Shown in pieces: positions 5,374 to 28,331 of a stretch of 28,331 nt of DNA. Every line of letters begins with the position of its first letter. Position 1 is the first letter of the stretch. The notes below the pieces were generated by a model that was given only the letters and a program-made list of their open reading frames with translations, ran no database searches and was not told where the DNA came from. Source of the stretch: a virus; the IMG/VR virus record IMGVR_UViG_3300032236_000999, positions 1 through 28,331 of that record. The stretch is one strand, 5' to 3'. Both the position numbers and the translations under genes were made by a program.

Positions 5374-5852
5374 TTCGCGGGCTTGGGCGGGAAGGGGGAC
5401 GGCTTGGGCGGGAAGGGGGACGGCTTGGGGGAGAAGGGGGACGGCTTGGGGGAGAAGGCGGGAGCGGACGGCAGGACGGAAGAGGAGGCCGCGTCGTCGT
5501 CCAAGTCGACGGAGATGCAGCAGGCCGTCTGAAGCCCCTGGCGTCGGATGTAGGTGAGCGCCGAACCGAGTTGCTGGGGCGAGAGCGTGTCGGCCTTCAC
5601 CGCGAGGACGCCACCGGGAAAGGTCTCGCCGCTTTCGTGCTGGAAGAAGGTCTGGACGCGGAGGGAGCCTTCATGGCTGTCGGCGACTTGGCGGATGCAG
5701 AAGCCATGCTTCAGGGCAACGGGCTTCACGGTGTCGAGGATTTCGGCGAGGGAGGCATAGCGGGACTTAAAGTCAGGGTTGACCTTATCGGCATGGGCGT
5801 TGCCGAGGTCGTTCATGAACGCCACGAAGGCGGTGGAGGGGGTCTTACTCAT
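5370..5852 (-). CDS. erf: ERF-family single-strand annealing protein
   Basis: This is a 160-residue protein. Residues 1-115 match the ERF recombinase pattern (PF04404): NPDFKSRYASLAEILDTVKP near the start, ending with QQLGSALTYIRRQGLQTAC and an acidic DLDDD. ERF proteins anneal complementary single strands during phage recombination and genome circularisation. The C-terminal tail is four tandem 7-residue units built on KPSPF, encoded by four 21-base repeats (5380-5463). ERF proteins are often around 200 residues, so this one is short. ATG 5852 overlaps the upstream gene by eight bases. With the RecE-like exonuclease and SSB-like protein it forms a recombination set. Confidence 0.85.
   Translation of the reverse strand: MSKTPSTAFVAFMNDLGNAHADKVNPDFKSRYASLAEILDTVKPVALKHGFCIRQVADSHEGSLRVQTFFQHESGETFPGGVLAVKADTLSPQQLGSALTYIRRQGLQTACCISVDLDDDAASSSVLPSAPAFSPKPSPFSPKPSPFPPKPSPFPPKPAK
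5380..5463 (-). repeat. Four tandem 21-base repeats in the ERF tail
   Basis: The units start at 5380, 5401, 5422 and 5443. The first two are identical, the third differs slightly, and the fourth is degenerate. Each keeps the reading frame and adds seven residues around KPSPF, so unit number can change without frameshift. Confidence 0.9.
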
Positions 5853-14700: not shown

Positions 14701-14763
14701 CGCCGAAGCGGGCGTCGAGGCCGTCAGCGTAGCCGACTCCGTGAAAACGAGGGTTAGACCCAT
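11758..14763 (-). CDS. Large tail fibre with collagen-like and glycine-rich regions
   Basis: This is a 1001-residue virion protein, the main candidate for host recognition. The N-terminus has two copies of an ATITVGS...GxxGT...FNFxIPxG unit, then a short collagen-like stretch (GDQGIQGIQGPVGPTGPTG, about 133-151). Next come repeated shaft-like units (SSYLTTASAASTYLTI, LSPYLLSSTASATY), a central beta domain (SGVTIPKGAVVSLAGAHGN to SITLNIRDAYEID), two SDGxTYGRKxxAW motifs, and from about residue 735 a glycine-rich domain ending HGFACIVTYF. Glycine-rich tips of this sort form polyglycine-sandwich adhesins in some phages. DNA for part of the tip (about 11930-12360) has different codon use from the shaft. 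It overlaps the preceding gene by ten bases. Confidence 0.85.
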   Translation of the reverse strand: MGLTLVFTESATLTASTPASAVVTITPANPPSSVDVSYVQPATVDLATGLPGPGATITVGSVTTLAAGSNATVNNVGTATNAVFDFGIPQGVKGDTGTAATITVGSTTTGAAGSSAIVTNVGTSSAAVFNFTIPRGDQGIQGIQGPVGPTGPTGVVAATAPLSYNSGTKTISIDLSAYATQAWATSHLYPLSSNPAGYLTSASLTGYATWNGSTNFNAYGATIKSYDSSDNFAGLDKGVLNFGNGSTASGIVINGSSITFADSTVQTTAAVSGIPDAPSDGQTYGRKDAAWEVIGSTSSVSWGSITGTLSAQTDLQTALDGKYPNSNPNGYITSSYLTGYATQSWVTSQGYITSAALSPYLLSSTASATYYPLSNPSAFITASALSPYLLSSTASATYLTISNAAATYFPKPTGTSSQYIDGTGSLQTFPTFTSATQLLITVSNQSGVTIPKGAVVSLAGAHGNLPTVILAQANAESTSFNVAGLATADIANNGTGTVVTSGTIGNLDTHAFTDGDTLYLSATVAGGYTSTEVLAPNHYVVIGVVSRAHPTQGSITLNIRDAYEIDELHDVAITSPANLDLLAYESSTALWKNKTFSTLGLETSSHAASTYQTLAGMSSYLTTASAASTYLTITNAASTYQTISGMSSYLTTASASSTYLAKASNLSDLANAATARTNLGLGTIATFNDAASDGTTYGRKNGAWAAVSSGGSGGCDVQTFGSASSSGSFTWTKPAGAKWVEILLFGAGGGGGSGGRYATSSARFGGGGGGAGGVFYSRINAAYLGATETVVVGAGSAGGASVSVDTTAGNNGTVGNNTTFSIYRAIGGNFGSGGSNTAGTAGGTRISIIFPSAVTAGGAGAGASTTGTSATSTSGQNITSSGGGGGAGAGASSTTNAAGGDGGFMSANVGASGVISGIAGGSGGTSGGTAATAGTSATTQYMQGGTGGGGGYYRTGVAGGTGGAGGWPGGGGGAGGASDNGFASGAGGAGAHGFACIVTYF

Positions 14764-15098
14764 ACGGCGTTGGCGGGGTTCTGCGTGCCGGTGATGGAGG
14801 GCAGGACGTCGACCGCGACCGTCTCGGTGTAGAAGACGGAGCCTGCGCCGTAGGTCATTTGGATGTCAAAGTAAGCCGAACCCGTCACCCAGTTGATGGT
14901 GTTGCCGCTGTAGGTGACGTCAAAGGTGGTCGGGGAGGTCTTGACCACCGTCAGGGGGTAATAGTTGTAGCCCGCGTCGCGGAGGGCGACCTTGATGGTG
15001 ACGCCAGTCAGGTCGGCGGGGGCCGAGGGGTTGTCCTGATGGTAAGTCCCCGTAAACGCGAAGGACGTCCCCTGCTTAAAGATGACGGTCTGAGCCAT
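14754..15098 (-). CDS. Small beta-rich tail protein
   Basis: This is a 114-residue protein: KQGTSFAFTGTYHQDNP, ADLTGVTIKVALRDAGYNYY, then a further alternating region ending in PSITGTQNP. The pattern (an unmodified X-x-G-T start and a DLTG-type loop) resembles small phage tail proteins that sit next to fibres, of the BppU N-terminal type. It is preceded by one copy of the 13-base element and overlaps the fibre gene by ten bases, suggesting coupled production and probably a fibre-attachment role. Confidence 0.6.
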   Translation of the reverse strand: MAQTVIFKQGTSFAFTGTYHQDNPSAPADLTGVTIKVALRDAGYNYYPLTVVKTSPTTFDVTYSGNTINWVTGSAYFDIQMTYGAGSVFYTETVAVDVLPSITGTQNPANAVWV

Positions 15099-15104
15099 GA
15101 GAGG

Positions 15105-15117
15105 GGGCGGCAGTCCA
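15105..15117 (-). promoter_or_regulatory. 13-base intergenic element, copy 1
   Basis: Sense strand TGGACTGCCGCCC, ending 6 bases before the 15098 ATG and preceded by TTT. It is one of six perfect copies in intergenic gaps of the structural module. No Shine-Dalgarno lies between it and the start. Confidence 0.8.
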
Positions 15118-15143
15118 AAACGCCTCCTAGGCCAAGCCAGAGG
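15117..15143 (-). terminator. Weak terminator-like hairpin
   Basis: On the minus strand CCTCTGG and CCTAGGAGG can pair with a small bulge, and are followed by CGTTTT. The stem is imperfect and the U-run is short, so at best it is a partial terminator or RNA-processing hairpin. It leads straight into copy 1 of the 13-base element. Confidence 0.35.
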
Positions 15144-15156
15144 GGTCTAATGGGGC

Positions 15157-16158
15157 TTAGGATGGGAAGCCAGCGGGCGTCACAAGCTGCGAGGGAACAG
15201 GGACAGCCTTGGTGTAGCCCGTCCAAGTCCCGTTCCATGCGTTGCACTGGGACTCAAACTGAGGCCAGTAAAGGTCAGGGGACGGGGCAGGTGCGCCAGT
15301 GTAGATGACCGACCCAGAATACTGGACGGTGTTGGGCATAGTAACCGACCCGCTCAGATACTGGAAGACCATCCAAGAACTTGAGCCATCCCAGACCATC
15401 GAGGCAATCTTTACGCGCTGGCAGTTGTAGTTATACTGCGAGGGGTAGTTGCTGAAATTGTCGACGAAGTTCCCGGCAAACGAGCCGTCGACATTGATGG
15501 CGGTCGCGTGGGCGATGGAATAGAGCTGGATGACGTCGCTCGTGCCCGCGTCACCCCAAGGGGTGGTTTTCTCGAAAGCATCATCGGAGACGGAAGGGTC
15601 ATCGCTCATGATCACAACGCGAGGCGACTCGCCCATCTCAGGCTTGTTCAAGGGCTGGCGGACGATGTAGACGCCCCAGTTATCGGCTCCACCGTTGGCG
15701 GCGTTCTTCACCGTGACGAACCCTCCGTTATCCATCCAAGGGCTGTTGGTGACCGTTCCTGCTGTCTTTGAGCCTGTCGGGTAAGCCCAGACGCCAGTCA
15801 GGTAAAACTCAGCCGTCACGACCAGCGGGCGGGTCGTCCAATAGTCTTGGATGATAGCCGACAACTTGGCGACCTTGGCTTGGGCGACGCCAGGGATTTC
15901 GGGGTTGGGGATGGTCAGTTGCACCTCGCCGCCGTCCGGTGGCTCATAGGTCTGCTGCTGACCAGAGTCTGGCAGGGAGGTGATGATTGACCCACCGGGG
16001 ATGTAGGAGACCACCGTCCCGCCGCCGAGGTAGGGCGTGGGCAGGGAAGCCTGCAGGCCAGCGGCGAGGTCGTTGAGTTGCTTGGCGTAGATTTCCTCGC
16101 CCTGCACGAAGCGGGAATTGAACCGCGACCCGCTGCCGTTGAAGGAGTCCGTCCCCAT
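15157..16158 (-). CDS. Tail-tip or baseplate protein of unknown family
   Basis: This is a 333-residue protein. It starts with FNSRFVQGEEIYAKQLNDLAAGLQ split by turns, a pattern often seen at the start of phage tip and fibre-hub proteins. A Gly/Pro-rich linker (about 40-90) and a large beta-rich domain with many Trp and Tyr residues follow. No catalytic motif is visible. It lies two genes after the tape measure and just before the fibre module, so it probably belongs to the distal tail. The start is two bases upstream-adjacent to the previous stop (TAAGATG). Confidence 0.6.
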   Translation of the reverse strand: MGTDSFNGSGSRFNSRFVQGEEIYAKQLNDLAAGLQASLPTPYLGGGTVVSYIPGGSIITSLPDSGQQQTYEPPDGGEVQLTIPNPEIPGVAQAKVAKLSAIIQDYWTTRPLVVTAEFYLTGVWAYPTGSKTAGTVTNSPWMDNGGFVTVKNAANGGADNWGVYIVRQPLNKPEMGESPRVVIMSDDPSVSDDAFEKTTPWGDAGTSDVIQLYSIAHATAINVDGSFAGNFVDNFSNYPSQYNYNCQRVKIASMVWDGSSSWMVFQYLSGSVTMPNTVQYSGSVIYTGAPAPSPDLYWPQFESQCNAWNGTWTGYTKAVPVPSQLVTPAGFPS

Positions 16159-16159
16159 C

Positions 16160-17017
16160 TTAGGAGAAGATGGACACAGTGGCGACTTGGTAGATGTCCA
16201 AGTCCCAGCCCAAGGTGTCGTTGGCGATCATCAGGTCGTAGGTCGCCTTCACGATGTGCTTGCCCGACTCGATGCTGCCGATGGACTCAAGGTTGACCGA
16301 GGTGATGAGCGCGTGTTTGTGGGGGTCGGTTCCGCCAGGGATGACGGGGGCGACCAACTTGGTCAGGTCGGCGGTGTCGTGGACGAGCATCCCGACCATG
16401 TTGGCGAGCTTGTAAGCCTTGGCCTCCGACTCGAAACCGAAGAGGATTTGCCCACGGATGTTGACCATCGGGCGGAGATACTGGCGGACGCCTGCTTTCT
16501 TGTTCTGGGTCGAGGTGTCGGAAGGGGCGAAGCCGTTGAAGGAATACTTGCCCGTCGGCGCGCCGGTCGCCGGGTTCATGATGGGCAACCAGATGGAATT
16601 GTTCTTCGGGGAGGAGTAAGTCCCAGCCAGAGGGCCTGAGGCAAAGCGAGCGTCGAAGGAGGTGAAGTTCGGGTGCGTCTCGATGGGCTGGGCCATCGTG
16701 TTGGCGACGCCCGTGATCTGTGCGTCCGTGTAGTCCACGCCGCGAGACACGCCGATGTAGTCCACGACCAGCATCGAGACCCCGGCCTTAGCCGAGGAGA
16801 TGTGATACTTATAGGACTTCATCGAGAAGCCCAAGTCGTCTGGGTAGTCGACGCCAGTCTCGTAGGTGTCGATGACGTCCGTCAGGTTCGACGCGGAGGA
16901 GTCGACGGCGAAGGTCAACTGAGCCTGGGCAAGGCCGTAGGCGTCGATGGAGATTGACCCCGATGGCTGACGCTGACCGGGGTTGAGGAGGTTGTTGCCG
17001 AAGTCGACGCGGGGCAT
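16160..17017 (-). CDS. Distal tail protein candidate, unknown family
   Basis: This is a 285-residue, mostly beta protein (GSISIDAYGLAQAQLTFAVD; GVSMLVVDYIGVSRGVDYTD; ESGKHIVKATYDLMI), directly after the tape measure, where siphophages keep the distal tail protein or tail-tip genes. It has no sequence motif that I recognise as a Dit domain. A repeat of beta strands with long loops also suits a tube-like or hub protein. The call rests on gene order. Confidence 0.55.
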   Translation of the reverse strand: MPRVDFGNNLLNPGQRQPSGSISIDAYGLAQAQLTFAVDSSASNLTDVIDTYETGVDYPDDLGFSMKSYKYHISSAKAGVSMLVVDYIGVSRGVDYTDAQITGVANTMAQPIETHPNFTSFDARFASGPLAGTYSSPKNNSIWLPIMNPATGAPTGKYSFNGFAPSDTSTQNKKAGVRQYLRPMVNIRGQILFGFESEAKAYKLANMVGMLVHDTADLTKLVAPVIPGGTDPHKHALITSVNLESIGSIESGKHIVKATYDLMIANDTLGWDLDIYQVATVSIFS

Positions 17018-17023
17018 GGGAGG

Positions 17024-18250
17024 TTATTTCGTGGCGGGGATGACAGGACGACCAGTGACGACTTGCGGCTGGGTGTTCTCGGCGGTCTTGACGGAGGCGT
17101 CCGCGATGCGGGTCGTCTGGGCCAGCATGGTGTCCTGATAACTGCCGCTGAAGATGGAGGAGATGTCGCCGCCGCCGAGGGCTTGGAGGGAGGAAACGGC
17201 GAGGGCGGGGGATGATGCGCTGGGTGCGGCTGCTTCTTCGGTCTTCTTCTGCTTGGCTTCCAGCTCAGCCTTAGCCATCGCGGAGATGAGGCCGGAGAGT
17301 TCCGAGGCGATGCCAGCGCGGGTCGCCGCGTCCAAGCCAGGGGTCGCCAACTGCTGTTGCATGTAGGCACGCGTTCCGGCCTGTTGGGCGGCAAGGCCGA
17401 CACCCTTGGAGGAAAGGTCTTTAATCAGTTCCTTTTGATACTGCTCAAGGCCAGCACCTGAGCGGATGTCGATGCCCTTGGACTGAAGGCGTTCGGCGAC
17501 ATCTTGGATGGACGCCCCGACAATGCCCTTGGTTTCCTGCTCGTCGACCGACACCTCGATGAACTTGAAGAACTTCTTCCAAGCTGCGGTGCGGCGTTCG
17601 GCGGCACGCTCGGCGGCGGCGGCGGCCTGAAGCTCCGCGTCAGAGTAGGTCTTTAGGGCGGACGACTGCTCGGTGATCGCGGACTCGCCCTTGGCGATGA
17701 TGGGGAGCAGTTCACGACCAGAGCGTCCGAAGATGGTCGTCGCGTTGGCGGCGACTAGGGCTTCGTTGCCCGTGTCCTGGAGTTGCTTGCCTAGGGCGGC
17801 GAGGGCTTGGGTCGCCGTGATGTTGCCCGACGCAATCTGCTCGTCGGTGAAGCCAAGTTCCTTCAGCACCTTGCCGTGACCGTTCACGTCCTTGGAAGCC
17901 TGACCGATGTATTTCGAGAAAAGGCCGACCGAGCGGGCGACCGCGTCCATGCTGACGCCGACGGATCGGGCTAGACCAGCCACGCGCTGAAACTCCTCGC
18001 CGCCTCCTGCGGTCGTGCGGATAGCCTTGTTGAGTTCGGAGAAGTATTCCTTAGCCCCGGCGATGCCTTCCTTGAACTTGTCGAAAAGGGCGGTCGCGGC
18101 GAACATCCCGCCGAGGGCGGAAGTCACGCTGGTGGCGAGGCTTTGAAACTGGCCAGAGATTGCCGTACCGGCGGTCTTGGCGGCTTCGGACGCTCCCTTG
18201 GCGACATCGGAGAAATCGCCGCTAAACTTTACTTTTACGTCGTCAGCCAT
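17024..18250 (-). CDS. Short tail tape measure protein
   Basis: This is a 408-residue, helical, Ala-rich protein. It starts VKVKFSGDFSDVAKGASEAAK, and its first 60 residues and following hydrophobic patch (SALGGMFAATALFDKFKEGI) are typical of tape measures, as are the FSKYIGQASKDV region and the C-terminal TTRIADASVKTAENTQ. Tape measures set tail length at about 0.15 nm per residue, so a tail near 60 nm is expected, short for a siphophage. The middle holds an Ala/Arg-rich coiled coil (AAAAAERAAERRTAAWKKFF). It starts one codon after the stop of the chaperone candidate, in the same frame. Confidence 0.85.
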   Translation of the reverse strand: MADDVKVKFSGDFSDVAKGASEAAKTAGTAISGQFQSLATSVTSALGGMFAATALFDKFKEGIAGAKEYFSELNKAIRTTAGGGEEFQRVAGLARSVGVSMDAVARSVGLFSKYIGQASKDVNGHGKVLKELGFTDEQIASGNITATQALAALGKQLQDTGNEALVAANATTIFGRSGRELLPIIAKGESAITEQSSALKTYSDAELQAAAAAERAAERRTAAWKKFFKFIEVSVDEQETKGIVGASIQDVAERLQSKGIDIRSGAGLEQYQKELIKDLSSKGVGLAAQQAGTRAYMQQQLATPGLDAATRAGIASELSGLISAMAKAELEAKQKKTEEAAAPSASSPALAVSSLQALGGGDISSIFSGSYQDTMLAQTTRIADASVKTAENTQPQVVTGRPVIPATK

Positions 18251-18253
18251 GGG

Positions 18254-18835
18254 TCAGTTTCGGGTGGTTTGTTTCTTTTGTTCTTCCAGCTCCCGCTTAT
18301 ATGCTTCCATCGCGTCCCACTCCTTGTCGGAGATGACGTCGACTTCAGCACCAGCGGCCTTGATGTGTGCGATGTGCAGCCAGATTGCTTCGGCCTCAGG
18401 CATCGTCCATGCGTCCTTTGTGGAATGTCCGTTGCGGACGAGCGAAGCGATCACGGCGAGATGCCAGGGGATGCCGGTCTCCTTGGAGCGGTTCTCCTTT
18501 TCCCAGAAGCGAGGCCAGAGGGACTGAGCCGACATATAGATGAGGATTTTGGACGCCTCCTCTTTCAGTCGCTTGATGCTCAGTTGCATCGACTTAAGGT
18601 GATAACCCTCGCGGAAGGTCAATGGCGCTCCGAGGGCGTTGATTTCGTGGGACGACAGGATGCGGACGGCCTTGATGATGTCCATCGCCCCGAAGGGGCG
18701 AGACAGGTCAAGGATGGGCGAGTCGATGGCCTCCAAAGCCACGCGGTGGCGAAGGCAGAAGGGCAAAAGACGACGACCGCAGACCTCAAGGGTCGGCGGC
18801 AGTATCGTCGCAGCTTGCGTCCACCGGGAGGCCAC
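18254..18835 (-). CDS. Tail assembly chaperone candidate
   Basis: This 193-residue, GTG-started protein lies between the tube candidate and the tape measure, the standard place for the lambda G/GT chaperone. It is helical and charged, with LPPTLEVCGRRLLPFCLRHRV near the start and a Lys/Glu-rich end (AYKRELEEQKKQTTRN). Lambda and most siphophages make an extended form by a -1 frameshift. I looked at the last codons in the -1 and +1 frames and both stop soon after, so no frameshift product is supported. The family call is positional. Confidence 0.55.
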   Translation of the reverse strand: MASRWTQAATILPPTLEVCGRRLLPFCLRHRVALEAIDSPILDLSRPFGAMDIIKAVRILSSHEINALGAPLTFREGYHLKSMQLSIKRLKEEASKILIYMSAQSLWPRFWEKENRSKETGIPWHLAVIASLVRNGHSTKDAWTMPEAEAIWLHIAHIKAAGAEVDVISDKEWDAMEAYKRELEEQKKQTTRN

Positions 18836-18857
18836 GGCGGTAAAGCCCTGCGGGGGC

Positions 18858-19196
18858 TTAGGTGATGCCCTGGTACTTGACCAGCTTGAGGGTGACCTTG
18901 CGGAAGCCGTTGTTCGTGCCAGCGTCGTCCACCTGCTTGATGATGTAGGAGATGGTGTTATAGGTCAGAGTCTGACCAATGGCGGGAACGGTCGCACCAG
19001 TCTTGAGGACACCGGACAGGCTCGTTTCGTAGCGGAGGTCGTCTAGTCGGTCGGTAATGACCACGCCCGTTTCGTTCATCACTTCGACGTCAATGGCGGG
19101 CTTCGTAGCGATGTCGTCGCTCTGGAGCGTGACGAAGCTCGCGGTATCATAAAGACCCCAGACGTGGGCAGTTCCGAAAGTGGTGGGCAGGGACAT
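18858..19196 (-). CDS. Tail tube protein candidate
   Basis: This is a 112-residue beta protein: TLQSDDIATKPAIDVEVMNE, then DLRYETSLSGVLKTGATVPAIGQTL (with breaks) and a closing strand KVTLKLVKYQGIT. The pattern (short loop, strand, P-x-x-G-x-x-L, paired strands) and the place right after the tail terminator fit the tube protein (lambda gpV position). It is shorter than most tube proteins. The alternative is a small neck or completion protein. Copy 2 of the 13-base element lies 20 bases upstream, in a setting with no Shine-Dalgarno. Confidence 0.55.
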   Translation of the reverse strand: MSLPTTFGTAHVWGLYDTASFVTLQSDDIATKPAIDVEVMNETGVVITDRLDDLRYETSLSGVLKTGATVPAIGQTLTYNTISYIIKQVDDAGTNNGFRKVTLKLVKYQGIT

Positions 19197-19216
19197 GGGC
19201 TATTAGAATTAAAGGG

Positions 19217-19229
19217 GGGCGGCAGTCCA
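19217..19229 (-). promoter_or_regulatory. 13-base intergenic element, copy 2
   Basis: Sense strand TGGACTGCCGCCC, beginning six bases after the tail terminator stop and ending 20 bases before ATG 19196. Confidence 0.8.
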
Positions 19230-19235
19230 GCAGGG

Positions 19236-19673
19236 TCAGGCAGCGGGCGGATAGACCCCTACCAGCGTGTAGGTGATGACGTTGCCCCAGCGGCGGTCGG
19301 CGACCCCTTCGTCGTCCGAGACGATCGTGGAGAAGTAGAGGCTACCTTGAGTCCAAGCGGCCTGAAGTCCGGCGAGGTCGGTCATGATGCCTTGAACGGC
19401 TTCCACGCGGGCGCGGTGTTCGGCGAGGGTCGAGTCGTCGGCGGAGGAGTAGACGTAAATCTTCACGGTGACCTCGAAGTTGCCGAGGTTGACGTAGCCG
19501 AAGTCGCGGTGGGCTTGGGCGGACTCCGCGTGGAGGATGACGATGGGCAGGGAGCGGATTTCGTCCGTCTGACCAGCGTGGATTTGGACGCCAGGGAGTC
19601 CGCTGGCGTTGGTCGTGAACCAAGCGAGGAGGGATTGTTCCGAAATCGTGCGGATGCCGTAGAGGGTGGTCAT
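19236..19673 (-). CDS. Tail terminator protein (gpU-like position)
   Basis: This is a 145-residue alpha/beta protein: an N-terminal helix (ISEQSLLAWFTTNA), a PIVILHAESAQAH strand, a GNFEVTVKIYVYSSADDST strand, a helix (HRARVEAVQGIMTDLA) and a final strand (RRWGNVITYTLVGVYPP). This order matches tail terminators of the lambda gpU/HK97 gp10 neck region, which cap the tube and join it to the head. It overlaps the upstream gene by four bases. Confidence 0.7.
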   Translation of the reverse strand: MTTLYGIRTISEQSLLAWFTTNASGLPGVQIHAGQTDEIRSLPIVILHAESAQAHRDFGYVNLGNFEVTVKIYVYSSADDSTLAEHRARVEAVQGIMTDLAGLQAAWTQGSLYFSTIVSDDEGVADRRWGNVITYTLVGVYPPAA

Positions 19674-20569
19674 GAGAAGTATTGTGCGGTGTTGGCGGTC
19701 TTGCCTTGGGCGGTGGCAATCCAGAGGTTGCTCTTCTGCTTCTTGAGTTCTTGGATCATGGCTACCCGCATGGCGTAGGCTCGGCGGTTCAAGGCAATCT
19801 GCGTGAAGCGGGCGTTGCCAAGCTTGTTGCCGATGATGTTCCCGACGGTCACTTCGGGCTTCATGGGCTTATCGGCCTTGTTGTCGGCGATGGCGTTGGA
19901 TGCGCCGGCAGACTGTTTAGCCCACGCGGGAACGACGATGTTCTCGGAGATGCGTTGGGCGGCGAACCAATAGGCCGATTTGAGCGTGCCGACGTCCTTG
20001 GCCTTCTGGCGGGCGTAGGAGGCGATTTCGGACTCCTTTGTCACGAACGCAAAAGGACGTTCGCTTTTCTTTGCAGTAGGGATAAGGCCGCCCTTACCTC
20101 CGTCTAGTCGCAGGGAAGCGTGAAGCCTTTCCATCGCGGACTTGTCTCCGTCGATAAAGGCTGGGGCTTTGCCACCTGTTCGGAATCTGTCTTGGAACTG
20201 CGTCCAACGCATCTTGCGTCCTTTGGCGGTGAAGTTTGAGTCCCGCTTCTCCCACATTTTGAAAACCTCGTATGAACCTAGGTTGGCGATGTCGGAAGGA
20301 AGGGCGTTCTTAAGGGGTTGGAAAACCTTAAAAACGGATGCCGTCACCGCTGTGACGCCAAGTTTTTTGGCTTCGCCAGTGGCTCCGTCCCCGCCGTCCT
20401 TGGAGACAAAGGGGCGGGTAAAGGAAATCATGTCCTTGCAGAAAAGCCCGGCCTGTTGCTTCACGACGACGCCGAGGCTCTTTCCCATGACGAGAGAGTA
20501 GTCCTTCAAATGGGCTTGAAACGCCGTGTCATCGACGACGACGTTCCGCCCTGCGTCCATCTTGCCCAT
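19670..20569 (-). CDS. Neck/tail-completion protein (gpZ-like position)
   Basis: This is a 299-residue basic protein. The start at 20569 shares one base with the stopper stop (TGATG). It has a helical N-terminus, a central Lys/Arg-rich region, and VGTLKSAYWFAAQRI followed by VPAWAKQ. The latter pattern (V-G-x-x-K-x-x-W near a P-A-W) occurs in phage proteins annotated as tail-completion or HK97 gp10-like. Position between stopper and tail terminator equals lambda gpZ, though this protein is longer (gpZ is about 190 residues). The DNA between 20030 and 20470 is somewhat less GC-rich than its surroundings. Confidence 0.6.
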   Translation of the reverse strand: MGKMDAGRNVVVDDTAFQAHLKDYSLVMGKSLGVVVKQQAGLFCKDMISFTRPFVSKDGGDGATGEAKKLGVTAVTASVFKVFQPLKNALPSDIANLGSYEVFKMWEKRDSNFTAKGRKMRWTQFQDRFRTGGKAPAFIDGDKSAMERLHASLRLDGGKGGLIPTAKKSERPFAFVTKESEIASYARQKAKDVGTLKSAYWFAAQRISENIVVPAWAKQSAGASNAIADNKADKPMKPEVTVGNIIGNKLGNARFTQIALNRRAYAMRVAMIQELKKQKSNLWIATAQGKTANTAQYFS

Positions 20570-20913
20570 CAGCGCACACCGGCCTTCGTCTGGACGCGGG
20601 CGATGATCCACGCGGACGGGGGGCGGTCGTTGATGGCGACGATGCGGTAGTCGTTGCCGTTGTAGGTGACGAGATTGCCGAAGACCACGTAGTTAGGGTG
20701 AGCCGCCGCGTCGGTCTTGAGGAACTTGACGTCAAAGGAGGTCGAGTTGAGGAAGCCGCCCGTCTCCATGTCCTGCTGAACCATCGGAGGCCCCATGAGG
20801 ACGTTGAAGGCCACAGGCGTCCCGCTGGGCGTGTGACGGACGGTAACGGCCTTGGGGATTTCCCCGAGGATGACGGCGGCGTCTCTATCCCATTCGTCCT
20901 GGATTAGTCCCAT
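20569..20913 (-). CDS. Head-tail stopper (FII-like)
   Basis: This is a 114-residue protein starting at 20913 (MGLIQDEWDRDAAVILGEIP). An N-terminal helix is followed by a small beta barrel with VTVRHTPSGTPVAFNVLMGP, FDVKFLKTDA and LVTYNGNDYRIVAINDRP. This layout fits gpFII-type stoppers, which close the portal and bind the tail. The order after the major capsid gene is the lambda order. Copy 3 of the 13-base element ends six bases before the start. A piece of this gene is shared with 4449-4838. Confidence 0.65.
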   Translation of the reverse strand: MGLIQDEWDRDAAVILGEIPKAVTVRHTPSGTPVAFNVLMGPPMVQQDMETGGFLNSTSFDVKFLKTDAAAHPNYVVFGNLVTYNGNDYRIVAINDRPPSAWIIARVQTKAGVR

Positions 20914-20919
20914 GCGGTT

Positions 20920-20932
20920 GGGCGGCAGTCCA
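20920..20932 (-). promoter_or_regulatory. 13-base intergenic element, copy 3
   Basis: Sense strand TGGACTGCCGCCC, immediately after the U-run of the capsid terminator and six bases before ATG 20913. Confidence 0.8.
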
Positions 20933-20967
20933 AAAGAGAAACCCCCGCCACCTTTCGGCAGCGAGGG
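20932..20967 (-). terminator. Intrinsic terminator after the capsid gene, second hairpin
   Basis: On the minus strand CCCTCGCTGCC pairs along all 11 positions (with G-U pairs) with GGTGGCGGGGG around a GAAA tetraloop, then TTTCTCTTTT follows. A good intrinsic terminator in the middle of the structural operon, probably partial, so that downstream genes still get some transcription. Confidence 0.8.
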
Positions 20968-20971
20968 CTTC

Positions 20972-20994
20972 AAAAGCGGAACCCGAAGGCTCCG
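20972..20994 (-). terminator. First hairpin after the capsid gene, UUCG loop
   Basis: On the minus strand CGGAGCC and GGTTCCG pair around a TTCG loop closed by C-G, a very stable RNA tetraloop, followed by CTTTTG. It starts six bases after the capsid stop. It could act as a weak terminator or protect the capsid mRNA 3' end. Confidence 0.65.
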
Positions 20995-20999
20995 AGGGT

Positions 21000-21938
21000 T
21001 TAGCCGTTGATGGCGATGCGGAGGAGGCCAGCCGAGTTGCCGACCGACACGCCGTTGACGAACGACATGTTGAGGTGCATCTTGCCTTCGTTCCACATGT
21101 AATACTGGCGGAAGGCGAGGGAGAAGTCGCTGTCCGGGTCGGTGATGGTTTCCTGCACGCCGCCACCAGTGACAGGGGCGTTGGTGACGCGCGTGGCGAT
21201 CACGAAGCCTTCCTGACAGGAAGCGATGCCAGCGAGGTGTTCCGTGTAGGCAGTGCCGGAGGTCGGGAAGCCGTTGTATTCATACAGCTCGAGACCATGG
21301 ATGCGACCGAGGAAGCCGTGGCCCTGGCCACCTTCGACGATGTTATCCGTCGAGCCGATGGAGAGATACTGGGAGACGGTGGGGTCGGCGAGGAGGGCGC
21401 CGTAAGCGGCCGGGGTGATGAGGGCGGCGCGGTTGTCGTAGGGCAGGTTGGCAGCCGTCATCGCGGTGATCGTGGGGACGATACCACCAGCGCGGGTGAA
21501 GCCAGCGGCAGTGCCGTTGTAGGCGACGCCGGAGAAGTTGGCGGCGGTGGCCTGCGAGAGGACGCTGTCGAACAGGGACTTGCCGACGGCGTTCACGAGC
21601 GGGGCGAGGAAGACGCGCTTCAGCATTTCGGGGCTGATGGCGTTCTGCTCCTGGTCGGTGAAGCCGACATCGACGTAGGTGAAGTTCGTCAGCGTGACGG
21701 CGACGTCCGTGGAGACGGCGTTCTGCGGGACGAAGCCCACGGAGGCGTCATAGTTGCTCGCGGTGAACGGCGAGGCCAGACGGGTGTGGACGACGTTGCC
21801 GATGCGGGACACGTAGGAACCGAAGTCGGTGACGGCGATTTTCTTGAGCGGCTGGAGAACCGGGACAAGGGTGCGGAGGGTTTCGGCCGCAACGAACTGC
21901 GGAGCAAGACCCTGATTTAGGACGCTATTAGTAGCCAT
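21000..21938 (-). CDS. Major capsid protein
   Basis: This is a 312-residue protein, probably of the HK97 fold. The N-terminus (LNQGLAPQFVAAETLRTLVPVLQPLKK) is an extended arm and helix. RIGNVVHTRLASPFTASNY and SVGFVPQNAVSTDVAVTLTN resemble the E-loop region of coat proteins of the P22-coat/DUF type. Then come a long helix (LKRVFLAPLVNAVGKSLFD), a conserved ALITPAAYGALLADP segment, and the closing beta strands. It is flanked upstream by a coiled-coil scaffold candidate and the protease, and downstream by two strong hairpins, as expected for the most abundant virion protein. Confidence 0.85.
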   Translation of the reverse strand: MATNSVLNQGLAPQFVAAETLRTLVPVLQPLKKIAVTDFGSYVSRIGNVVHTRLASPFTASNYDASVGFVPQNAVSTDVAVTLTNFTYVDVGFTDQEQNAISPEMLKRVFLAPLVNAVGKSLFDSVLSQATAANFSGVAYNGTAAGFTRAGGIVPTITAMTAANLPYDNRAALITPAAYGALLADPTVSQYLSIGSTDNIVEGGQGHGFLGRIHGLELYEYNGFPTSGTAYTEHLAGIASCQEGFVIATRVTNAPVTGGGVQETITDPDSDFSLAFRQYYMWNEGKMHLNMSFVNGVSVGNSAGLLRIAING

Positions 21939-21971
21939 GAGGGGGAGTGATTATTGGGGGTTGAAAGGGGA

Positions 21972-22445
21972 TTACTTGGACGCGCCAGCGAACACCTTGG
22001 CGGCGATGAACGCCGAGCGGTGCTTGTTGTAGAAGGCGGTCTTTTCCTTGGAGGGAGCCATGGAACAGTATTCGTTCCAGAGATCTTCCGTGGACTTGGC
22101 GGCGGCTTCGACAGCCGGGGCGATTTCCACAGGGGTCGCACCAGCAGCGGCGACGATCGTGGCGGCCTTCTTGCCGACCGACTCGATGGCGGCTTCGGCC
22201 TGAACCTTGGCGGACTCGACGGAGGCCAGGGAAGCCGCAAGGGCTTCGACCTTGGCGGCGAGGGCGTCACGCTCCGAGGCGACAGCCGACGCGGCGTCGA
22301 GCTTCTCGGTGAGGGTGGCGACTTCGGAGGCGAGGGCGTCGGCCTTGGCGTTGGCAGCCGAGAGGGAAGCGTTGAGGGCTTCGACTTCGGAAGCCTTGCC
22401 GGAGAAGGCAGACTTGAGGGCGGTCAGGGACTGTTCCAGAGTCAT
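21972..22445 (-). CDS. Coiled-coil scaffold candidate
   Basis: This is a 157-residue protein. Residues 1-95 are an Ala/Glu/Ser coiled coil (LNASLSAANAKADALASEV; ERDALAAKVEALAASLASV); then comes an Ala-rich hinge and a C-terminal region (LWNEYCSMAPSKEKTAFYNK). Helical rods with a short basic C-terminus, coded between protease and capsid genes, are typical of capsid scaffolds (lambda Nu3, HK97 delta domain). A decoration protein would usually be smaller and beta-rich. Copy 4 of the 13-base element ends ten bases upstream. Confidence 0.65.
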   Translation of the reverse strand: MTLEQSLTALKSAFSGKASEVEALNASLSAANAKADALASEVATLTEKLDAASAVASERDALAAKVEALAASLASVESAKVQAEAAIESVGKKAATIVAAAGATPVEIAPAVEAAAKSTEDLWNEYCSMAPSKEKTAFYNKHRSAFIAAKVFAGASK

Positions 22446-22455
22446 GTTGAGAAGT

Positions 22456-22468
22456 GGGCGGCAGTCCA
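22456..22468 (-). promoter_or_regulatory. 13-base intergenic element, copy 4
   Basis: Sense strand TGGACTGCCGCCC in a gap of only 27 bases: it starts four bases after the protease stop and ends ten bases before ATG 22445. Confidence 0.8.
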
Positions 22469-22472
22469 GCGT

Positions 22473-23756
22473 TCAGGAGATTTTCGACCCGGCGCGGTGA
22501 CGGGGAGTGTCCTTGCGGTCGTGCTTCTCGTCGGTGTCGACCGCCTTCTCGGAGGCGTCCGCATGCTTCTTGGCTTCCGCGTCGTCATGCTCTTTGTCGT
22601 CGTCTTCGTCCTCGTCATCCTCGGACTTCATGTCGGCTTGCGGCGGTTCGCCGTCCTTCTTCTCGTCCTCGGCGGAGTCGCCCTGCTCGGCCTTCTCTTC
22701 GGGGTCGGGGGTCGCTTCCTCGGCTTCGTCTTCCTTGTCCTTTTCGTCCTCGTCCTCGTCCGTCTCGATGGTCACCTTGAGGGACTGCTTGGACAGGGAG
22801 GAAAGGAGCGTCTTGCCGATGGCACGCTGGGCGGCGGACATGTGCTTGGCGTATTCGCCGGACTCGTCCGACTCGCCTTCCTCGGCTTCCTCTTCGCGGG
22901 CGTCGTTCTCTTCGTCCGCTTCCATCTGCTCGGCGACCGCCTTGTCGAGCGACTCCATCAGCTCGTCGAAGCCGTTGACGATGCCGGTCACGAGGCCGTT
23001 TTCGGCGGCCTTCTTGCCGGAGTAAATCTTGGCTTCCATGGACTCGTCCGAGGCGAACGTGCGGACGGCCTTAACGGCGGCCTTGAACTCCTCGTGGATC
23101 TCGGAGACCTCTTCCTGAAGCATCGACTTCTGGTCGGAGTCGAGGGACGTGCCGGGGATGCCAGCGCCCTTGAACTTGCCAGACTTGATGACGTCGACCT
23201 TCAGACCTTCGTCGGCGTAGGCTTGGGACTCGTCGAGGTAGGCGATGTAGCAGCCGATGGAGCCGACCGAGGCGGACGGCGTGGCGAAGACCTGTTCGCA
23301 TTGGGACGCCAGCCAATAGGCGGCGGAGCAGGCTTCCGAGTCGGTGAAGGCGATGGTCTGCTTCTTGGACGAGCGGATGCGGTTAGCCAGTTCGGGGACG
23401 CCGACCGACGTGCCGCCAGGGGAGTCGACGGCGAAGATGATGGTCTTCACGCGGGGGTCACGCTCGACCGCCTCAAGCATCTCTTCCACGTCCTTCAGGT
23501 CAACCGCCCCGCAGTAGGACTCCAATTCGGAGAGGCCGCGACCGATGACGCCCTTGATGGGGACGATGGCGTAGGGCGGGAAGACCTCAAGGGTCGGACG
23601 CTTGCCGAACATCGTCTCAAGCATCTCGCCCATGTCGGCGAGCTTCGCACCGGCAGGGATGGAGATTTGGGCGCAGTTAGCCAAGAACTCCTTAGCCACG
23701 GCGGGCTGGATAAGGAGCGGGCGGTTATTGGCGTAGGCTTTCGAGAGGGACTTCAT
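22473..23756 (-). CDS. S49-family capsid maturation protease with acidic tail
   Basis: This is a 427-residue protein like lambda gpC. The SppA-type serine protease domain (about 60-270) has VDSPGG (111-115), the nucleophile S144 in SEACSAAYW, and K196 in SGKFKGAG, 52 residues later, the usual Ser-Lys spacing. It would process the portal, scaffold and coat during head assembly. The last 150 residues (about 278-427) are extremely rich in Asp, Glu and Lys, with no fold, and could serve as a scaffold extension or be trimmed. ATG 23756 was chosen because it lies 11 bases after the portal stop; a longer open frame overlaps the portal gene. Confidence 0.85.
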   Translation of the reverse strand: MKSLSKAYANNRPLLIQPAVAKEFLANCAQISIPAGAKLADMGEMLETMFGKRPTLEVFPPYAIVPIKGVIGRGLSELESYCGAVDLKDVEEMLEAVERDPRVKTIIFAVDSPGGTSVGVPELANRIRSSKKQTIAFTDSEACSAAYWLASQCEQVFATPSASVGSIGCYIAYLDESQAYADEGLKVDVIKSGKFKGAGIPGTSLDSDQKSMLQEEVSEIHEEFKAAVKAVRTFASDESMEAKIYSGKKAAENGLVTGIVNGFDELMESLDKAVAEQMEADEENDAREEEAEEGESDESGEYAKHMSAAQRAIGKTLLSSLSKQSLKVTIETDEDEDEKDKEDEAEEATPDPEEKAEQGDSAEDEKKDGEPPQADMKSEDDEDEDDDKEHDDAEAKKHADASEKAVDTDEKHDRKDTPRHRAGSKIS

Positions 23757-23767
23757 GGGGGCGATTG

Positions 23768-25318
23768 TTAGAGGGGTTTGAAGCCGTCCGTGGGGGCGGC
23801 GGTTCCAGCCGCGTCGATGTCGGTCGTGGAGGTGTTTTCGGGCTTCCAGACCATGGACAGCGGGACGCCAGCGGCCTTGGCCTTGTCGATTGCCAACTTT
23901 GCGTCGGCGATGCGCTGGTCGAGTTCGACCTCGTAGGACGAACCCAGCTCGGAGAAGTGTTCGGTGAGCGTCTTGAGGCCCATCGAGATGTCCTTTTGGT
24001 TCGCGGAGGCTTCGCGGCCCGCGTCGACCGTGATGCGGCGAGGCCCGATCCATGCGACCTTGTGGAACTCGTCGTTGGGAGGTAGTTCGCCGTTGGCGAT
24101 GAAAGTCCCGATGACGTAAGCCCAGACCTGATTGTTCAGGCGGGTGTCAAGGACGGCTCCACGCATCTGGAAACCTCGGTCAGCCTTGGCGGTGACGAGA
24201 CGCATCCCCGCGCCGGCGGCGTCAGGGCGGACGGTGAACTCGTAGGGCGTGTTGCCGAGGGTCGAGTCGCGGTCGACGTGGTCGATGAAGCCGTTAAAGG
24301 ACGCGTTGGGACGCTGGGACTCAAAAGACTTGAGTTCTTCGCCAGGGGCTAGGGCGAGGATTTTCCCGCCGATGAAGGAACCGACCTCGTTGGGGTTGTT
24401 GTAGACGCCGTTGGGATAATCCTGCGGCTTCATGCCGAAGGCTTCAAAGTCGGCGATGTCCCCGGCAAACTGACCGCCCTCGCGGGTGATCGTGCGAACC
24501 ACGTCGCCGTTGGACTTCACGCCCAGTTTCTCCAGAGATAGGATTTCCAGCACGTCCACGACGTTGTTGATGCTATGCTGAAGCGGGGAATAGGCACGTG
24601 CGCCCGACACCTGTTCGGGGTGGTAGACGTGCATGATGGACTGGGCAGGGATGATGCGGGCCGTCCCGTCCGAACGGATGACCGAGTAGCCGATGACCGC
24701 ACCGAACTTGTTGAACAGGATGCCGTCCGTCAGGCCGTCGGCGGTTCCGCCCGGCTGGTTGACGTTGCCCACGCGGTGGGACTCAATCATCTGCAACGCA
24801 GGGCGACCGTTGGCAAAGGAGGTCTTCAGGTTGAAGAGTTCGCCATCAATGTCGATTTTCGAGGAGTTGATGCCTTGGACTTCCCAGAAGTTATACCGTC
24901 CCGTGATTTCGCAAGGGTGGTTCGCCCACTCAAGGAACTTCTCAAGGGCCATGCGGTTCCAGTTGGCGTCCTTGGTCTGCGGATGGGGGCGACGACCATC
25001 GGCTCCGACCGAGTAGGTGCGGTTGTCGTTCACCATCTGGCGGATGAGGCCGGAGTTGACCGACAGCCAACGCATCTTACGCGTCAGTTCCTGGCGGTCG
25101 AAGGTCGACATGACCTTCTTGAAGTCCGCAGGGTAGGGCGTGTTAATCCACTCCCGCTTGTTGATGAACTTCGCCCCTTCAAACTGCGAGAAGACGCCAG
25201 ACCCGCCGCCGTAAGCCCCGCCCATGCCGTCGGCTCGCGCCTTCAGGCCGTTCTTCTTAGCCTTCGCTTTGGCGTCGGAAGCGGTTGATTTGCGGGGACT
25301 TGGCTTCTTCTTTTGCAT
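23768..25318 (-). CDS. Portal protein (lambda gpB-like)
   Basis: This is a 516-residue protein with a basic N-terminus (MQKKKPSPRKSTASDAKAKA). The typical portal features follow: LTRKMRWLSVNSGLIRQMV with NDNRTYSVG, KFLEWAN and INSSKIDIDGELF, then MIESHRVGN, IMHVYHPEQVSGARAYSPLQ and a C-terminal PRRITVDAGREASANQKDI. This order matches the lambda-type portal family (PF05136). It forms the dodecameric ring through which DNA is pumped. It lies between the gpW-like joiner and the protease, as in lambda. Confidence 0.9.
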   Translation of the reverse strand: MQKKKPSPRKSTASDAKAKAKKNGLKARADGMGGAYGGGSGVFSQFEGAKFINKREWINTPYPADFKKVMSTFDRQELTRKMRWLSVNSGLIRQMVNDNRTYSVGADGRRPHPQTKDANWNRMALEKFLEWANHPCEITGRYNFWEVQGINSSKIDIDGELFNLKTSFANGRPALQMIESHRVGNVNQPGGTADGLTDGILFNKFGAVIGYSVIRSDGTARIIPAQSIMHVYHPEQVSGARAYSPLQHSINNVVDVLEILSLEKLGVKSNGDVVRTITREGGQFAGDIADFEAFGMKPQDYPNGVYNNPNEVGSFIGGKILALAPGEELKSFESQRPNASFNGFIDHVDRDSTLGNTPYEFTVRPDAAGAGMRLVTAKADRGFQMRGAVLDTRLNNQVWAYVIGTFIANGELPPNDEFHKVAWIGPRRITVDAGREASANQKDISMGLKTLTEHFSELGSSYEVELDQRIADAKLAIDKAKAAGVPLSMVWKPENTSTTDIDAAGTAAPTDGFKPL

Positions 25319-25324
25319 GGGAAA

Positions 25325-25600
25325 TTAGAGACCGCGGAACGTCCAGAGTCCGTTGTAGACGCGGACGGTGTCGCGAGCGCCGTATTTGTTCGGGTCGCGG
25401 ATCTGGAGGGCGTGACGCAGCTCGACGAGGAACGTGCGGGTATCCATGGCAAACTGTTTGGTCACGGTCGTCCCGCTGTCCGAGTAGGAAAGCATCACCT
25501 TGTTGCCTGAGATGGACGTGAACTGACCGTCCTTCATCGCTTCCAATTGGGCGGTGGAGAAGATGAGGAGACAACCTGTCGGACGGATACTGTCGGCCAT
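25325..25600 (-). CDS. gpW-like head-tail joining protein
   Basis: This is a 91-residue protein between the large terminase and portal genes, the lambda W position. The segment LEAMKDGQFTSISGNKVMLS, then TKQFAMDTRTFLVELRHAL, gives the helix, beta hairpin, helix order of gpW. It would stabilise the filled head before tail joining. ATG 25600 lies six bases after copy 5 of the 13-base element; an upstream in-frame GTG at 25639 would swallow the element and is rejected. Confidence 0.7.
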   Translation of the reverse strand: MADSIRPTGCLLIFSTAQLEAMKDGQFTSISGNKVMLSYSDSGTTVTKQFAMDTRTFLVELRHALQIRDPNKYGARDTVRVYNGLWTFRGL

Positions 25601-25606
25601 GAAGTC

Positions 25607-25619
25607 GGGCGGCAGTCCA
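25607..25619 (-). promoter_or_regulatory. 13-base intergenic element, copy 5
   Basis: Sense strand TGGACTGCCGCCC, preceded by TTT and ending six bases before ATG 25600. G-rich sequence just upstream (GGGGGGAGCC) can partly pair with it around a TTTT loop. Confidence 0.8.
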
Positions 25620-25645
25620 AAAGGCTCCCCCCGCGTCACCTATTG

Positions 25646-25690
25646 AAAAACGAGGGGAAGCGACCGAGGGGAGGTCGGCGTCCGCTTCCC
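25646..25690 (-). terminator. Intrinsic terminator between large terminase and gpW-like genes
   Basis: On the minus strand an eight-base stem GGGAAGCG/CGCTTCCC with an inner CCGA/TCGG pairing is followed by CTCGTTTTTC. It should lower or condition transcription of the head genes after the terminase genes. Confidence 0.75.
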
Positions 25691-25718
25691 ATGCCGAGGT
25701 CGCGTGCCAGACGAACGG

Positions 25719-25731
25719 GGGCGGCAGTCCA
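25719..25731 (-). promoter_or_regulatory. 13-base intergenic element, copy 6
   Basis: Sense strand TGGACTGCCGCCC, beginning one base after the large terminase stop. It is the only copy not followed closely by a recognised gene: an 18-codon frame (25636-25692) and the terminator lie downstream. Confidence 0.8.
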
Positions 25732-28266: not shown

Positions 28267-28331
28267 GGCAGGCGGGACAGCGTCCTATGCGAAAATTGAG
28301 GGTTTTTGTGCATTTTTAACGAGGTCGCGAC
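28267..28331 (-). promoter_or_regulatory. AT-rich leader upstream of the terminase genes
   Basis: This 65-base stretch contains TTAAAAATGCAC and CAATTTTCGCATAG on the minus strand and an 8-base palindrome GTCGCGAC at the window end (28324-28331). In lambda-like genomes the cos site and the late promoter region lie on this side of the small terminase gene. Nothing here is a clear promoter or cos, and the feature is cut by the window edge. Confidence 0.3.

Follow-up and report, generated by a model that had tools for sequence, protein, structure and literature searches.

The window analysed in this study is the whole of IMG/VR virus record IMGVR_UViG_3300032236_000999 (28,331 nt), and its gene content is that of a tailed phage, with a GpA-type terminase, a lambda-type portal, an S49-type head protease and a major head protein. 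It holds six exact copies of the 13-mer TGGACTGCCGCCC, every one of them intergenic. All six lie on the minus strand; this is the sense strand of the window genes and also the strand of the copies, genes and hairpins given below. Copy 1 (25719-25731) begins 1 nt past the terL stop, in tandem with copy 2, and has no start codon within 20 nt, the next ATG being 29 nt on. Copy 2 (25607-25619) lies ahead of a gpW-like gene of 91 aa (25325-25600), which has no Pfam or PHROG match and takes its name from the first-pass annotation; copy 3 (22456-22468) lies ahead of a scaffold-like gene (21972-22445), to which the MCP gene (21000-21938, phrog_283) is next. Copy 4 (20920-20932) precedes the gene in stopper position (20569-20913, 114 aa), copy 5 (19217-19229) the gene in tube position (18858-19196, 112 aa) and copy 6 (15105-15117) a fibre-associated gene of 114 aa (14754-15098; phrog_1084, unknown function). 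The names gpW-like, scaffold, stopper and tube reflect gene position only.

No further match to TGGACTGCCGCCC with 0-2 mismatches was found on either strand of the window, and matches with 3 mismatches (20, against a shuffle mean of 15.4) were near chance level. An order-2 Markov model predicts 0.0015 copies, and TGGACTGCCGCCC is the only 13-mer with at least five copies on the window's sense strand. Copies 2 to 6 end 6, 10, 6, 20 and 6 nt before an ATG, respectively. The first-pass annotation had described the six copies as exact, one-way and intergenic at these coordinates, with none noticed elsewhere, had judged such a 13-base word not to be expected by chance and had placed five copies 6-20 bases ahead of an ATG; the searches bear it out on all of these points. 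Among other repeats, the three minus-strand copies of CCCAAGCCGTCCC at 5396-5450 form a tandem repeat within coding sequence (FSPKPSP) and have nothing to do with the element, and GCCGAGGTCGAGCGGCTGAC-like repeated segments at 80-600, near the record end, look like coding repeats.

The same annotation had put three copies after a hairpin ending in TTT, which is well founded for two of them. A terminator-like hairpin (25624-25661; fold -19.4 kcal/mol, z -3.7, with all hairpin z-scores taken against mononucleotide shuffles) adjoins copy 2, and a strong intrinsic-terminator hairpin (20938-20971, z -5.8) follows the MCP gene with its T-run beside copy 4, but the CCTC...GAGG hairpin ahead of copy 6 (15123-15143) is weak (z -1.2). 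The sequence of this last hairpin, CCCCTCTGGCTTGG, recurs ahead of the stopper genes of relatives, and the hairpin sequence GACCCCTCTGGCTTGGC (relatives' stopper junctions; 15123-15150 in the window) shows cross-phage conservation beyond the need of a plain terminator. Hairpins directly upstream of gpW sites have a mean z of -3.4, with z below -1.5 in 21/23, and those ahead of stopper sites a mean of -1.6 (18/42); they are not consistent ahead of fibre, scaffold or tube sites. RNA transcribed from copy 1 would stop at the hairpin ahead of copy 2, at a length of about 90 nt (25623-25712, minus strand), and an 18-codon ORF, MGSGRRPPLGRFPSFFNR, lies between the two tandem copies and is partly conserved in the relative L007.

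Where a terminator stands directly upstream, the next gene has to have a promoter of its own. Sigma-70 promoters are not in excess in the window's late region (3 found, 2.5 expected), and of the five matches to TTGACA/T with a -10 in 11 genomes, none lies at an element site. Neither a full sigma-70 promoter (TTGACA, TATAAT, 16-18 nt) nor a sigma-54 promoter, whose GG-GC spacing does not fit, accounts for the sites; the TTGAC that they share in the phage family described below was rejected as an ordinary -35 box because no -10 stands at the right spacing and the start would fall inside genes. Canonical TTGACA-N16/17-TAT promoters do occur in some relatives, after the MCP gene and ahead of inserted genes. 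In L011 (7850-10240) a small-gene insert between MCP and stopper carries a terminator and a canonical promoter of its own, and a repeated CCAACCCAACGCTCCCAATGA-like sequence precedes six start sites in it; the MCP-stopper insert of L016 (about 1900-2700) resembles, by eye, an ATP-dependent DNA ligase gene, and this gap seems to be an insertion spot in the phage family.

The annotated absence of a Shine-Dalgarno (SD) sequence between element and ATG is real but not special, because an SD-like 4-mer was found in only 2/36 window genes and most of the 34 genes without one are also without the element. A published survey counts some Verrucomicrobia among SD-scarce bacteria (PMC10783764).

Homologous elements in related phages

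The first-pass annotation took the element for a real one-way regulatory element, to be judged by its fate in relatives, and a homologous element is indeed present there at the same junctions. In L007 and L008 (MCP 88% identical) the window's sequence is exact at all six and all three junctions covered, respectively, copy 1 being conserved in L007, and the flanks differ. Relatives with 65-77% MCP identity are without it, and most carry TTTGACTCCCGCGGAGG at the same junctions, nearly or fully exact at all sites. Scans with capsid and stopper alignments, by which the family was collected, gave about 80 loci; an exact scan of 2.9 million viral contigs for the 16-mer TTGACTCCCGCGGAGG gave 17 stretches, most of which lie on contigs that had already been found to belong to the family, and a wide-gap pattern scan of viral contigs returned, among the matches listed, mostly single chance matches. 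A homologous element stands at the same five junctions, ahead of the gpW-like, scaffold, stopper, tube and fibre-associated genes, in about 100 loci of one phage family, near-complete genomes of 30-36 kb among them.

A motif check in these relatives also favours the annotation: the near-complete genomes each carry their own version at the five sites, always on the coding strand; beyond these, whether elsewhere or on the other strand, similarity grouping yields no more than a few weak look-alikes, each occurring singly. In the divergent G009, similarity grouping listed 2/5 sites and direct reading of the junctions shows 5/5. Numbering from the first T of TTGAC as 1, the common form of the element is TTGAC(T/A)NNN(G)CG with Y-A at positions 19-20, and phage-particular versions include TTGACTGTGGCGGAGG, TTGACTGCCGCCTAGTC, TTGACAACATCGCAT and TTGACTCCCGCGCTATTT; the window's version is TTGACTGCCGCCC plus one G after TTG, at all six sites. 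In many relatives the upstream gene seems to end on the TGA of TTGAC at the scaffold and tube sites. Searches for Rfam families and for tRNA or tmRNA genes gave no match. As a target of antisense small RNA the element was rejected because its longest antisense matches, of 8-11 nt, are comparable to those of control elements, and a self-hairpin, possible in the CTCCCGCGGAG version and not in others, is no common feature.

The versions change in concert within a phage. At positions 6-17 the within-phage identity is 0.852 as against 0.550 with phage labels permuted, 0/2000 permutations being as high (34 loci with at least four sites), a result that is not a strict probability because some loci come from the same or very similar phages. 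At positions 6-14 identity is 0.90 between genes of one phage and 0.61 between phages at the same gene, whereas for the left flank the relation is reversed, with 0.26 within a phage and 0.38 between phages at orthologous sites. Such joint change at all sites leads us to expect a trans-acting, phage-specific reader, that is, one phage-encoded factor for all sites.

The distance to the start codon distinguishes two classes of sites. At class 1 sites (gpW, stopper and fibre), which lie immediately upstream of the start codon, the ATG follows the first T of TTGAC by 19 nt in 82/97 cases, a count that, like the other family counts, comes from related phages and is hence not independent. At class 2 sites (scaffold and tube) the ATG mostly comes 25-36 nt after the first T (range 20-40); position 20 is then not part of a start codon, and yet it is A in 94% of 86 such sites, with C/T at 19 in 93% and T at 18 in 88%, the start codon lying 1-21 nt beyond the conserved A. 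A pyrimidine-A that stays fixed even where no start codon lies resembles a transcription start. Of the window copies, four carry an A at position 20: in the class 1 copies 2, 4 and 6 this predicted +1 is the A of the ATG itself (25600, 20913 and 15098), and in copy 5 (class 2) it lies at 19210, ahead of the ATG at 19196. The scaffold copy, copy 3 (class 2), has its A at position 21 (predicted +1 at 22448, ATG at 22445), and copy 1 has G at position 20 (predicted +1 at 25712).

A candidate reader of the element

The core genes of eleven records include a helix-turn-helix (HTH) gene directly ahead of terS, and an HTH gene stands beside terS in 10/10 larger records that reach this point. The window holds the last 16 nt of this gene (28316-28331), cut by the record end, with bases identical to the end of the L007 gene. 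Pfam matches of the HTH protein are generic and weak (MarR_2, 0.0036; Sigma70_r4, E 0.24), and its predicted model is good only in the HTH part (mean pLDDT 79); many of the top PDB matches of the model are sigma-A region 4, none of them significant (best 4g8x, probability 0.82, E 0.77). When contigs were sought by the HTH protein alone, 62 were retrieved, with the element present wherever their late junctions are readable; other core genes also co-occur with the element. GLGKT at the HTH turn was seen, among the contigs read, only in the clade with the added G. The correlation of protein distance with element distance was best for the HTH protein (r 0.77), but other core proteins are close (0.74, 0.71), so this measure does not clearly single it out. 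Together, co-occurrence, fold likeness and the GLGKT clade are suggestive, and we regard the HTH protein as the likely reader of the element. A T7-type RNA polymerase (PF00940) was absent from 22 records, with T7 as positive control. Sigma region 2 was looked for in the phage records and not found, the positive control having worked. Of regions 2 and 4, which together make up a phage sigma factor, region 4 has a weak likeness in the HTH protein.

Discussion

Our data suggest that the element forms the core of a late promoter specific to each phage and recognised by a phage-encoded factor, a reading to which we give a probability of about 0.6. It explains more of the observations than the other readings do, namely the position of the sites, their concerted change, the fixed pyrimidine-A, the upstream terminators and the copy without a start codon. 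The first-pass annotation was thus right to see a regulatory element, but the functions that it proposed (repressor or antiterminator site, translation element, RNA-processing site) have less in their favour than the late promoter, which it had not named. An antiterminator site, for instance, would be expected ahead of terminators, and the element stands directly after them. The closest parallels among known systems are stoperators and Start-Associated Sequences (SAS), and by the tests made the element is neither.

The stoperators of cluster A mycobacteriophages (L5, Bxb1) are 13 bp long, asymmetric and one-way, and each phage has its own version, which tracks phage divergence (PMC6550527). 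The present element is likewise short, asymmetric, predominantly in one orientation and placed in short gaps, with phage-specific versions that follow the divergence of the phages, and it might accordingly be an operator at which a repressor blocks or halts transcription until late infection. However, stoperators are bound by the immunity repressor of temperate phages, whereas here an integrase was not found in nine family records, with positive controls working, two scans of about 85,000 species genomes returned no prophage relative, and no repressor gene was identified. Moreover, the five or six sites all lie ahead of late genes, with a constant spacing to the start, and a repressor has no need of the conserved A20; we therefore consider an operator rather unlikely.

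An RNA element is also unlikely. Were the element a site at which a nuclease of the phage or the host processes or cleaves a long late mRNA, with the cut at position 20, leaderless or short-leader 5' ends would result, and the fixed position 20 and the one-way orientation do fit a cut 5' end, so that the A at this position could be an RNA-processing end. At two junctions, however, the site is directly behind a terminator-like hairpin, where RNA would rarely arrive; the versions have no RNA structure in common, and the candidate that co-occurs with the element belongs to a type of protein that binds DNA.

SAS and ESAS of Cluster K phages are 13 bp long, lie immediately upstream of start codons, nearly all in one direction, and have no known function; the SAS, GGGATAGGAGCCC, has 16S rRNA pairing potential and is common to three subclusters (PMC3203893). 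At class 1 sites the present element resembles them in length, direction and closeness to the start codon, as it does at five of the six window copies, and a phage factor or RNA that acts on the mRNA there and enables the ribosome to start can be imagined, the more so as some relatives have versions with GGAGG near the ATG. Unlike SAS, however, the element does not have the sequence GGGATAGGAGCCC and varies between phages; the window's version contains no SD-like core, and A20 is fixed even where no start codon is present. The distance from TTGAC to ATG varies from 19 to 40 nt while A20 stays, one copy has no nearby start codon, most of the 34/36 genes without an SD do without the element as well, and an antisense partner RNA was not above control level, all of which makes a role in translation very unlikely. 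Site-specific single-strand nicks in virion DNA, as in T5, tf and the phiKMV group, also occur in short one-strand consensus sites such as CGACxxxxxCCTA/CTCCGG and TACT/RTGMC (PMC3517423), but a nicking target would leave the fixed link to five gene starts and the A after C/T unexplained and seems far-fetched.

We return to the late promoter, for which the following mechanism may be proposed. The promoter core would span positions 1-12, that is, -19 to -8, with the start at the conserved A at position 20, after C/T. The gpW, stopper and fibre mRNAs would then be leaderless, their first A being that of the ATG, and the scaffold and tube mRNAs would have leaders of 1-21 nt. A phage DNA-binding factor, most likely the HTH protein encoded ahead of terS, would recognise its own phage's version and bring host RNA polymerase to the virion genes. 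These would form five transcription units, some starting right behind the terminator of the unit before. The start site, the reader and the host enzyme are what we infer from this arrangement. GC-rich phages also have a GC-rich -10 region, and since nothing in this region looks like a known -10 element, such a promoter could hardly be opened by a standard holoenzyme alone.

Phage-specific promoters are familiar from other phages. T7-type promoters are compact, end near the start site and have a phage-specific sequence read by a phage protein; unlike those systems, the 22 records examined here have no single-subunit RNA polymerase. T4 late promoters serve late genes through a phage factor and host RNA polymerase without a -35 box, TATAAATA at -10 being used with gp55. 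The element resembles them in serving late genes and in the proposed use of a phage factor with host RNA polymerase, but it consists of TTGAC plus CG between -19 and -8, and a protein with sigma region 2 was not found.

Of isolated phages, Verrucomicrobia phage P8625 is nearest by capsid protein (MCP 30% identical), and for this reason our guess is that the host is verrucomicrobial. No element of the present kind was found in P8625 (L220), which has TTGACA exactly 36 nt ahead of the ATG at four genes (upstream of 5448, 10772, 15594 and 22442), with GTATC plus GGATAC-like repeats at three of the four. This spacing suggests that the TTGACA sites may be promoters giving leaderless mRNAs, and unlike the family element they have TTGACA at the usual -35 distance.

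A more specific version, which we put forward only tentatively, is that a small sigma-region-4-like protein without region 2 guides host RNA polymerase to compact promoters, which lie at -19 to -8 and have neither a -10 nor a -35 box, with leaderless starts at the ATG, and that reader and sites have co-evolved into many specificities. Late promoters that depend on phage factors are already known, and the present layout would be new if confirmed. The element also offers a concrete, testable parallel to the Start-Associated Sequences, whose function was left open in the paper describing them. If the late promoter reading is right, a whole family of uncultured phages runs its late genes by a promoter type without standard boxes; the family would then be a natural panel of matched reader-site pairs, of use for orthogonal expression tools, and would allow one to ask how a regulator and all of its sites change together.
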